Source: Myxococcales bacterium (GTDB taxonomy: Bacteria > Myxococcota_A > Polyangia > Polyangiales > Houyiibacteriaceae). From it: a stretch of 46,384 nt of DNA. Positions 13,808 to 19,545 of the stretch are shown piece after piece (the stretch's first letter is position 1; each line of letters opens with the position of its first letter). A program made the translations under genes and the position numbers. The stretch is taken from the NCBI GenBank assembly GCA_024640845.1, contig JAHEEE010000027.1, positions 1 through 46,384 on the forward strand. The letters are read 5' to 3'. The notes under the pieces are model-generated. The model had not been told where the DNA came from. It saw only the letters and a program-made list of their open reading frames with translations, and did no database searches.

Positions 13808-13894
13808 TGGTAGCCGAGGTCGGACTCGAACCGACACATTCTTTCGAATACCGGATTTTGAATCCGGCGCGTCTGCCAATTCCGCCACTCGGCC
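13808..13894 (-). tRNA. tRNA-Leu (anticodon CAA)
   Basis: An 87-base cloverleaf with encoded CCA. The acceptor stem pairs GGCCGAG with CTCGGCT, the D arm has GGCGGAATTGG, the anticodon stem-loop is CCGGA-TTCAAAA-TCCGG with anticodon CAA (reads UUG), the long variable arm is ATTC-GAAA-GAAT as expected for leucine tRNAs, and the T arm is GTCGG-TTCGAGT-CCGAC. The discriminator base is A73. The first acceptor pair is G1-U72, a wobble pair, where G-C is more usual. Confidence 0.95.
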
Positions 13895-16127: not shown

Positions 16128-16817
16128 ATGGGAACACTGAGGAACTGGATCATGGTAGGAGCTGGATGCGCGGCCGCAGTGCTCGTCGCATTCGGCGGGG
16201 TGTCGGCTGAATCGATCGAGGGATCGATCGAAGCGAGCCCAAGCACAGACGCGCGTTCGGAGCCCGATCAAAAAGACCACTATTGGCGAGTGTGGAACGG
16301 CGCGCTTCCCGAGCAGCGCGACGAAGGCAACCACGACGATGTGCTGGCAGTCTTGACTGGCAAGTTCACCGGACCGCCGATCGGATGCACCTTTCGTTTC
16401 CGTGGCGGGGCGCTCGACCCTTCGACCCTCGCGGCGAGAACCGGAACGCAGGTTCGAGTCGAGAATCGAGACGCATTCACGCACGAGCTGGCTGTGGAGG
16501 GACTTGCCGGCTTCACACCGCTCGAAGCAGGGCCTGGTAAGGCACGCGTGATTGCCGTTCCAGCGGGAGGACCGTGGGAGCTCGGCGACCGAATTTACGG
16601 TCACGTGGATGGCTACCTCCATTCCATACGCGAGCTAGTCGCATGCGCTAGCGTCACACCGAGCGGCAAGTTCCGCTTCGATGATGTTCCACCGGGACCC
16701 TACTCGCTTCGGATTCTTCGCGGCGCAGAGCAGGTTGCCGTACGGCGCGTAATCGTGCCGACAGGCAAGGCGCTGCAAGTCGACGCGATTGCGCTCAGCA
16801 AGAGTGGGAGGAACTGA
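16128..16817 (+). CDS. Secreted cupredoxin-like protein with carboxypeptidase-regulatory-like tail
   Basis: A 229-residue exported protein. An N-terminal signal peptide (hydrophobic core AAAVLVAFGGV) is followed by a domain like plastocyanin-type beta folds (TQVRVENRDAFTHELAV, PGKARVIAVPAGGPWELGD, YGHVDGYLHSIRELVACASV) and a short C-terminal module SGKFRFDDVPPGPYSLRIL typical of prealbumin-like/carboxypeptidase regulatory domains. His residues in the HELAV and YLHSI segments and a late Cys resemble blue-copper ligands, but the order is not standard, so copper binding is unproven. The next gene starts 3 bases after its stop, so the pair is an operon. No established function. Confidence 0.68.
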   Translation: MGTLRNWIMVGAGCAAAVLVAFGGVSAESIEGSIEASPSTDARSEPDQKDHYWRVWNGALPEQRDEGNHDDVLAVLTGKFTGPPIGCTFRFRGGALDPSTLAARTGTQVRVENRDAFTHELAVEGLAGFTPLEAGPGKARVIAVPAGGPWELGDRIYGHVDGYLHSIRELVACASVTPSGKFRFDDVPPGPYSLRILRGAEQVAVRRVIVPTGKALQVDAIALSKSGRN

Positions 16818-16820
16818 CGA

Positions 16821-18602
16821 ATGCTCTCTCGCCTTTGGTACTTGGTTCTCGCTTTGGCCGTTGGCGCTGCCCTCGCCGGCGCGTTTCTCAACAAGTCGGC
16901 CGCTAGCCGAGAAGCGGAATTCCAGCTCGAAGAACAGCTTCGTCGCGATCGGGTCGAAGCGGAGCTTTGGATGCGACTCGATGCCAGGCTACGTCTCGAT
17001 GCATTGGCTTCCATCGCAGTGGAGCCTGAGGTCCGCCAGACGCTGCGAAGCTCGAGCGGACGTGCGGGCGTACCGAATTCGGGCACTCGCCGACGTCTGA
17101 GCATCAAGCTGAACGCGCTCAACGCCGAGCTCGAGGAGGGTCGCGGCGACATGGTCTTCGCGGTAGACGCCGAGGGCGAAGTCGTTGCGACGCTCGAAAA
17201 GAGCTCCTCGGGATCGGAACAACTCGGGAAGATGCCGCTCGTTCGCGATGCGCTTCGGGGCTTCATGCGCGATGACGTTTGGGTCTACAACGGAGAAGTA
17301 TATCGGATGGCCGCGCGCCCCGTCTTCGACGGCGGCCGGTACGTCGGCGCCATCGTCCACGGCATGAAGATCGGTGACGACCTGGCCCGCAGACTCGGCG
17401 CCAAGCTGCCGAACGCCTCCGTGGTGTTCTTCTACCGAGACCAGCTGGTCGCCGCACATTCGGGTGGCGCGACCGCACTAACGAGCACAGAGCTCAAGAG
17501 CGTCCTGCCGGCGGCGATCGAAAACATGGCGACCGCCACCGACTCAATCGAGCTGGGCGAGCGTGCTCGCGCCATCGTCGCCCCAGTACGAGGTGGGGCC
17601 GCCCATGCCGAGGTAGGTTATCTCATCGGCCGCAAAGGAAGCTCCGTCGGCCTCGGCGGCCTGTTTGCGAACACCTTCCAGGAGGACGTCGCTTCATTGC
17701 CTTGGCTGGTGGTGATTGGAATTCCGCTGCTCCTCTTGGTCCTCGGTCTGGGGCTGCTCTACATGGAGCACGACAAGGGCGTAGTCATTCTCAGGAAGAG
17801 CGCCGAAAGCCTGGCCAAAGGCGAGCAGAGCAGTCTGCCTGCGGGACGTCTTCGCCGCCACTACCGAAAGATCGCAGAGCACCTGAACGAGGCGCTGCGC
17901 GCGGGCGTCGGCTTCAAGGAGGATGCAAAGCAACGCGCGTCGGTCGACCTCGACCACATCCTCAACGCGACGCGCGAAAGCGCAGACACGGGCTACTTCG
18001 GCTATCCGTCGGCCGAGGCGCCTACCGCCAAGCAGGTTGCGCTAGACGAGGCTTCGGGAGAGAGTCCAAACTCGCCGCTGGCTCACGTGACGCCGGTCGA
18101 CAAACCCGCAAAGAACGCGGCCGAGACAGCGCGGCCTCAGCGCTCGCCCTCTTCTCGTCCGAAGCGCCCTTCATCGTGGCCAAGCCGTGCACCCTCCACG
18201 CGCCAACCGGTGGCAGCAGCGATTCGGCACACGGACGAAAGTCTCGCCCTAGCGCCGGATGACCCGCCCACACGGCCGAACGCGCTACTCGAGGACTACG
18301 ACGGCTTCGACGAACCAGAAGAGAATACGCAGGTCAAACACGTGCCGCAATCACTCATAGAAGCATCAGCCCCGGCGGTGCAAGGCGAGGAAACGCACTT
18401 CCGTGAGGTATTCGAACAGTTCGTCGCGACGCAGAAGCAATGCGGGGCGCCGGTGAGCGGCCTCACGTTCGACAAGTTCGTACGCAAACTTCATGCCGCC
18501 CGCGACCAAGTGATGGAGCGCCACAACGCATCCGAGGTTCGCTTCACGGTGTATGTCAAAGAAGGCCGCGCCGCGCTCAAAGCCAGCCCGGTCAAGCTCT
18601 GA
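16821..18602 (+). CDS. Two-TM sensor-like membrane protein (dCache-like periplasmic domain)
   Basis: A 593-residue protein with an N-terminal membrane span (about 5-24), a periplasmic region of about 260 residues with PAS/Cache-like sequence (DMVFAVDAEGEVVATLE, VWVYNGEVYRMAARPVFDGGRYVGAIVHGMKIGDDLA), a second span near residue 295-316 and a HAMP-like stretch (GQ-type basic/helical segment after ILRKSAESLAKGEQ). It then has a long Pro/Ser/Arg-rich linker and a conserved-looking C-terminal domain (FEQFVATQKQCGAPVSGLTFDKFV). This resembles the myxobacterial family named after MXAN_5187, from memory only. There is no kinase or methyl-accepting output domain. GGGAGGA lies upstream of the ATG. It is in an operon with the cupredoxin-like gene. 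Confidence 0.75.
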   Translation: MLSRLWYLVLALAVGAALAGAFLNKSAASREAEFQLEEQLRRDRVEAELWMRLDARLRLDALASIAVEPEVRQTLRSSSGRAGVPNSGTRRRLSIKLNALNAELEEGRGDMVFAVDAEGEVVATLEKSSSGSEQLGKMPLVRDALRGFMRDDVWVYNGEVYRMAARPVFDGGRYVGAIVHGMKIGDDLARRLGAKLPNASVVFFYRDQLVAAHSGGATALTSTELKSVLPAAIENMATATDSIELGERARAIVAPVRGGAAHAEVGYLIGRKGSSVGLGGLFANTFQEDVASLPWLVVIGIPLLLLVLGLGLLYMEHDKGVVILRKSAESLAKGEQSSLPAGRLRRHYRKIAEHLNEALRAGVGFKEDAKQRASVDLDHILNATRESADTGYFGYPSAEAPTAKQVALDEASGESPNSPLAHVTPVDKPAKNAAETARPQRSPSSRPKRPSSWPSRAPSTRQPVAAAIRHTDESLALAPDDPPTRPNALLEDYDGFDEPEENTQVKHVPQSLIEASAPAVQGEETHFREVFEQFVATQKQCGAPVSGLTFDKFVRKLHAARDQVMERHNASEVRFTVYVKEGRAALKASPVKL

Positions 18603-18603
18603 G

Positions 18604-18632
18604 TTGACCCCCGGGAAGACGGGCTCTACCTT
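18604..18632 (+). promoter_or_regulatory. Promoter of the 6S RNA gene
   Basis: TTGACC (18604-18609), a 17-base spacer and TACCTT (18627-18632), a good sigma-70 promoter beginning two bases after the stop of the upstream gene. The predicted start is about 18639, at the base of the closing helix of the RNA. Confidence 0.65.
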
Positions 18633-18639
18633 GGACTTT

Positions 18640-18833
18640 GGTCCCTCTGTCATTGCAGGTGAGGAAGGAGTGAGAATCCCTGACTAGGTCGAATAGGGAG
18701 CTAACAACGGACGTGGTGTGCGGACCCGGCTAGCGTCATCGGGGGGCCTAAAGCGTACGATACCGGTTCCCACCTACTAGTAACTGTAGGGGTTCGACTC
18801 AATACATCCCACGGCAATGACGGTCAGGACTGC
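18640..18833 (+). ncRNA. ssrS: 6S RNA (candidate)
   Basis: This coding-free stretch has the layout of 6S RNA, which mimics an open promoter and binds RNA polymerase. The ends pair: GTCATTGC (18649-18656) with GCAATGAC (18814-18821), extended by GTCC (18641-18644) with GGAC (18827-18830), closing about 190 bases. The segment GGTTCCCACCTAC followed by a small hairpin CCTAC-loop-GTAGG (18773-18790) and GGGGTTCGAC matches the 3' central-bubble region of proteobacterial 6S RNAs, and GGCCTAAAGC upstream resembles the E. coli GCCTTAAA segment. It has its own promoter and terminator. Covariance-model support is still needed. Confidence 0.75.
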
Positions 18834-18835
18834 TT

Positions 18836-18864
18836 GAGAGCCGACTCGAAAGAGTCGGCTTCTC
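18836..18864. terminator. Bidirectional terminator between the 6S RNA gene and pgl
   Basis: A perfect 9-base-pair stem with a GAAA tetraloop (AGCCGACTC-GAAA-GAGTCGGCT, 18839-18860), extended by GAG/CTC pairs with a single bulge. It is followed on the plus strand by a T-containing stretch (TCTCGGTTT). It lies between the convergent 6S RNA gene and the pgl end, so it can serve both. Confidence 0.65.
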
Positions 18865-18900
18865 GGTTTAAGGGGGGAGAGGCGCATGGAATCTCCGGCC

Positions 18901-19545
18901 CTAGTGCTTCTCATCGGTGACCAGAATCGCGTTGTCCTGCGGGACGCGGCCGGCAGGGATGCTTGGATCGGCGTCGCGTAGCCTCCGCAGCATCGACGAC
19001 TTGCCGGACTCCGCAACGATCCAAACGACGACCTCGGCCCGCGCAAGCGCAGGAAACGTCAGGGTCATTCTCGGGTGACCGCGATACGGCTGGGTTAACC
19101 CGACGAGACTTTCGGTGACATCGAGGACAGGGTCGCCTGGCACGAGAGAGGCGGTGTGCCCATCATCGCCGAGGCCAAGGTGGACGATGTCGAACCTCGC
19201 CGGGAGCGCGGCGGCATATTCCCGGGCCGCCCGCGCAAGATCGACTGACTCCACGGGCATCGGATGGATTTCAGCGGCGGCCCGGTCGAGCAGCGACTCG
19301 GTGAGCCCGGTGAGGTTGCGCGCTGGATCACCTAGCGGCGCGACTCGCTCGTCGACCTGATAGATGTCGACGCGATGCCAATCGATCGGAGCCGCGGCAA
19401 GGCGCCGAAAGACGGGCCATGGTGTGCTGCCCCCAGAGAGTGCAAGCGACACCCTCGGTCGCTCCACGAGTCGCTCCGAGAGCGTCTGAAACAACAAGTC
19501 AGTAGCCTCTTCGACGAATCGGGGCCCGGCGCGAACCTCGCGCAT
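18901..19545 (-). CDS. pgl: 6-phosphogluconolactonase
   Basis: A 214-residue DevB/Pgl enzyme with the family motifs LALSGGSTPWPVFRRL near residue 35 and the central HLGLGDDGHTASLVPGDP. It hydrolyses 6-phosphogluconolactone to 6-phosphogluconate, the second step of the oxidative pentose phosphate pathway. It is the last gene of a gnd-zwf-pgl operon, 19 bases after zwf. The C-terminus (SSMLRRLRDADPSIPAGRV) also matches the family. A bidirectional hairpin downstream separates it from the 6S RNA gene. Confidence 0.93.
   Translation of the reverse strand: MREVRAGPRFVEEATDLLFQTLSERLVERPRVSLALSGGSTPWPVFRRLAAAPIDWHRVDIYQVDERVAPLGDPARNLTGLTESLLDRAAAEIHPMPVESVDLARAAREYAAALPARFDIVHLGLGDDGHTASLVPGDPVLDVTESLVGLTQPYRGHPRMTLTFPALARAEVVVWIVAESGKSSMLRRLRDADPSIPAGRVPQDNAILVTDEKH

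Follow-up and report, generated by a model that had tools for sequence, protein, structure and literature searches.

The window analysed here, a stretch of 46,384 nucleotides from a Myxococcota genome, contains a gap between the stop codon of a gene for a 593-amino-acid protein (16821-18602, plus strand) and the convergent 6-phosphogluconolactonase gene pgl (18901-19545, minus strand; PF01182, E 1.5e-48). The upstream gene, a neighbour and not a part of the RNA described below, encodes a dCache-like protein whose match to PF14827 (dCache_3) is weak, with E 1.1e-5 and 25.6 bits, just under the cut-off of 25.7. At 16128-16817 lies the gene for a 229-amino-acid protein with a sub-threshold Pfam match only (carboxypeptidase regulatory-like), which travels with the 593-amino-acid gene and shows identities of 69-83% within the genus and 41-44% in the family's other genera. 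On the minus strand, 13811-13894 is a tRNA whose variable arm is long and whose anticodon, as read by eye, is CAA (leucine). The gap itself holds a promoter, an RNA core of 190 nt at 18641-18830 that forms one long bulged hairpin, and a terminator-like hairpin, all on the plus strand.

6S RNA is a small RNA that restrains the main bacterial RNA polymerase as growth slows. When 18500-18950 was scanned by E-value threshold and not by gathering threshold, the Rfam 6S model RF00013 matched 18641-18830 over its whole length (model positions 1-187 of 187) with a significant score of 38.0 bits and E 2.7e-6. The consensus blocks GGUGUGC, GCCUAAA and CCCACCU were matched directly in this alignment. Across the 4.1-Mb assembly it was the sole match up to E 10 (E 5.9e-6), and a second copy in the genome was found neither by RF00013 nor by R1, a covariance model based on 28 sequences of the genus and family. 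R1 gave 193 bits at 18641-18830, a sequence that is itself among those from which the model was built. The RF00013 score lies under the gathering cut-off of 46.4 bits, which is an annotation threshold and not a biological feature; a gathering-threshold scan of the whole window reported a tRNA alone and not the 6S RNA. The single sequence provided insufficient evidence, because its fold energy was ordinary against shuffles (z -1.63) and a simple scan for promoters and terminators made no call at the locus. The sequence-only reading, which had proposed a 6S RNA gene here, was nevertheless borne out by the RF00013 match, by the central bubble present in the fold and by homology and covariation across the order; every feature that it had named was present in the sequence at its coordinates.

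The structure contains a closing stem, a central bubble, a hairpin opposite the bubble and an apical stem, which are the features described for canonical 6S RNA (PMC8414754). The 5' strand of the closing stem (18641-18664) pairs with 18808-18830 in the consensus structure. The expected closing helix was confirmed as a perfect pairing of 18649-18656 with 18814-18821 (GTCATTGC/GCAATGAC), extended by GTCC (18641-18644) with GGAC (18827-18830), and its helices covary in relatives. A conserved GAAUCCCUGAC block, followed by the unpaired 5' side of the central bubble, occupies 18674-18695; in 28 sequences GAATC is invariant and CCTGAC nearly so, and this segment is the probable template of the short product RNA (pRNA). 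The apical stem and terminal loop with a conserved GCCTAAAGCG block extend over 18696-18771. On the 3' side of the bubble, the predicted small hairpin at 18773-18790 was also found, formed by CCTAC (18773-18777) and GTAGG (18786-18790). Canonical 6S RNA is reported to have a hairpin opposite the central bulge, which was demonstrated in B. subtilis (PMC8414754). In the present RNA, this hairpin and the stem closing the bubble are alternatives, since bases 18786-18790 are common to both.

Covariation was assessed in an alignment of 65 sequences across the order (A2), which was fitted to the R1 structure and favours that structure somewhat. In A2, 91.9% of the cells were paired, two-sided changes occurred at 37 of the 46 base pairs, and the covariation score was 0.442 compared with 0.172 for shuffled alignments. 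When the pairing partners were slid by one base as a control, pairing fell to 45-53% and the score to 0.05-0.094. The two-sided changes thus far exceed both the shuffled and the slid controls, despite the fit to the model. They affected 14 of 16 pairs in helices 1-4 of the closing stem, and were numerous in the apical-stem helices 7-10, which were 94-99% paired. The 3' bubble hairpin offers an independent test because it is absent from the R1 structure. At least five base pairs could be formed at this place by 47 of the 65 sequences (shuffled mean 4.7, maximum 11), with many sequence types, among them CCUAC/GUAGG, CCUAGC/GCUAGG, CCUUGG/CCAAGG and CCUGGC/GCCAGG.

The promoter consists of TTGACC (18604-18609) and TACCTT (18627-18632), separated by a spacer of 17 nt; its -35 element starts two bases past the dCache-like gene's stop codon. 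The simple scan had been empty because of its strict consensus, and conservation in relatives was analysed in its place. A promoter-like pair, defined as at least 8 of 12 matching positions with a spacing of 15-19 nt and located 3-14 nt 5' of the RNA, was present in 45 of 64 homologous loci and in 2.7% of shuffled upstream sequences, so that the promoter named by the sequence-only reading stands at its place and is conserved. Downstream of the RNA core, an intrinsic-terminator-like element covers 18834-18870, with GAAA as its loop and a brief GGTTT tail; the hairpin itself spans about 18836-18864 and is strong, folding at -22.3 kcal/mol (z -3.8 against shuffles). On the 6S strand it is followed by a short T-run (GGTTTAA). 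Most relatives have a hairpin 3' of the 6S RNA, several of them with longer T-runs. A bidirectional terminator shared with pgl had been proposed. The GAAA-loop hairpin after the 6S RNA is present, but on the pgl strand it continues into AAGCAGTCC, which lacks a T-run, and intrinsic termination of pgl at this hairpin is therefore not supported by the sequence. From the conserved promoter and the terminator hairpin, a discrete 6S transcript of about 180-230 nt is predicted.

Among 96 related genomes, 29 gave a match to the element in a DNA search, and in an oriented alignment of 28 loci both ends of the RNA were nearly invariant. With R1, the RNA was found in 85 of the 96, almost always once per genome. 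The carriers are metagenome assemblies assigned to Myxococcota, Myxococcales, Polyangiaceae or Deltaproteobacteria. Wherever both models match within the order, R1 and RF00013 land on the same positions (e.g. G044, contig C19, 50985-51187; G079, contig C3, 2180925-2181117), and they thus agree at places outside the set from which R1 was built. Of 140 genomes in the phylum, 82 gave RF00013 matches, 58 of these above the cut-off. The 6S RNAs of these other Myxococcota are the same RNA as the one described here, with homology along its entire length; they differ from it in their neighbouring genes and by a sequence drift that is strongest in the closing stem. Full-length homologues in the family passed the cut-off with 51.5-69.6 bits, and other genera of the family scored up to 69.6 bits, whereas scores in the genus ranged from 30 to 46.6 bits and two of 19 genomes passed the cut-off with full-length homologues (46.4 and 46.6 bits). 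R1 found the 6S RNA in 15 of these 19 genomes, which marks a practical gap in the annotation of this genus. Two 6S hits in one assembly were seen in G042 and G070. Contig 83 of genome G042 contains L144 (4257-4442, minus) and L145 (6681-6866, plus), both with 94.6 bits and separated by about 2.4 kb; the pair reflects either an inverted duplication of recent date or an artefact of assembly. Genome G070 contains two different 6S RNAs, L146 and L147; the second resembles that of another family of the order and likely results from contamination of the metagenome bin.

The convergent position with the pentose phosphate genes pgl, zwf and gnd had been considered worth noting. In no other locus examined, the genus included, were these genes next to the 6S gene; a meaningful pairing was consequently rejected and the arrangement regarded as incidental, since it is confined to one genome among the loci examined. 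The genomic neighbours also differ from those of ssrS in E. coli. The dCache-like gene, on the other hand, adjoins the 6S gene in every locus of the genus that was fetched, directly before the RNA and codirectional with it. Several other genera of the family (L021, L024, L027, L047) have a dCache-like homologue downstream in convergent orientation, so that across much of the family the gene keeps its place next to the 6S RNA while its side and direction change. It is improbable that the RNA of this genus, with its far drifted closing stem, has somewhat different polymerase contacts or a regulation coupled to the dCache sensor gene; nothing in the data suggests a role other than that of 6S RNA.

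Even less probable is an RNA of the Ms1 type, which is 6S-shaped and binds core RNA polymerase without sigma. A similar overall rod-and-bubble shape is possible, and Ms1 is described as structurally related to 6S RNA yet bound to the core enzyme (PMC9130861). Ms1 has, however, been reported from Actinobacteria, whereas the phylum here is Myxococcota and relatives; 18641-18830 matches RF00013 in sequence and structure over the full length, relatives score above the 6S cut-off, and neither Ms1 nor any other polymerase-binding RNA family was matched at the thresholds used. A decayed copy, or an RNA derived from 6S that no longer acts on the polymerase, would fit the scores of the genus under the Rfam cut-off and is the least credible reading in view of the compensatory changes, the conserved promoter and the presence of just one copy in almost all complete relatives.

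We conclude, with a probability of roughly 0.97, that this Myxococcota genome has one 6S RNA (ssrS) gene, located at 18641-18830, which is preceded by a sigma-70-type promoter of its own and followed by a terminator hairpin, and whose function is assigned by analogy. It shares with the E. coli-type 6S RNA (SsrS) of RF00013 the full-length match, the closing stem, the bubble with its 3' hairpin, the apical stem, the CCCACCU and GCCUNAA blocks and the possession of its own promoter; it differs in that this genome (38.0 against 46.4 bits) and most of the genus remain under the gathering cut-off. The RNA belongs to a widespread, well-known family and is an ordinary representative of it.

The gene would yield an RNA of about 230 nt that includes the 190-nt structured core and folds as an elongated rod with bulges, in which the central bubble mimics promoter DNA in the melted state. 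As known from the 6S RNAs studied so far, it would bind the housekeeping sigma-70 RNA polymerase during slow growth and keep the enzyme off promoters. Once nucleotides return, the polymerase would copy a short pRNA from the bubble, after which the RNA may refold around the 18773-18790 hairpin and release the polymerase. Polymerase binding and pRNA synthesis are expected here from membership in the family. One candidate for the pRNA start, judged by likeness to the E. coli pRNA, lies opposite 18694. Another candidate start lies opposite 18684, where GG would occur at positions 5/6 in agreement with the published start rule (PMC8414754). In other 6S RNAs, binding of the housekeeping polymerase and its release through pRNA synthesis are established (PMC8414754).

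Open-access literature searches for 6S RNA in myxobacteria, Myxococcota and Deltaproteobacteria yielded no dedicated study. Standard cut-offs miss most 6S copies in the genus, so that the gene would usually go unannotated; a 6S seed enlarged by sequences from Myxococcota should recover it. Some myxobacteria have a starvation-driven life cycle, a setting in which a regulator of stationary-phase transcription can be tested.
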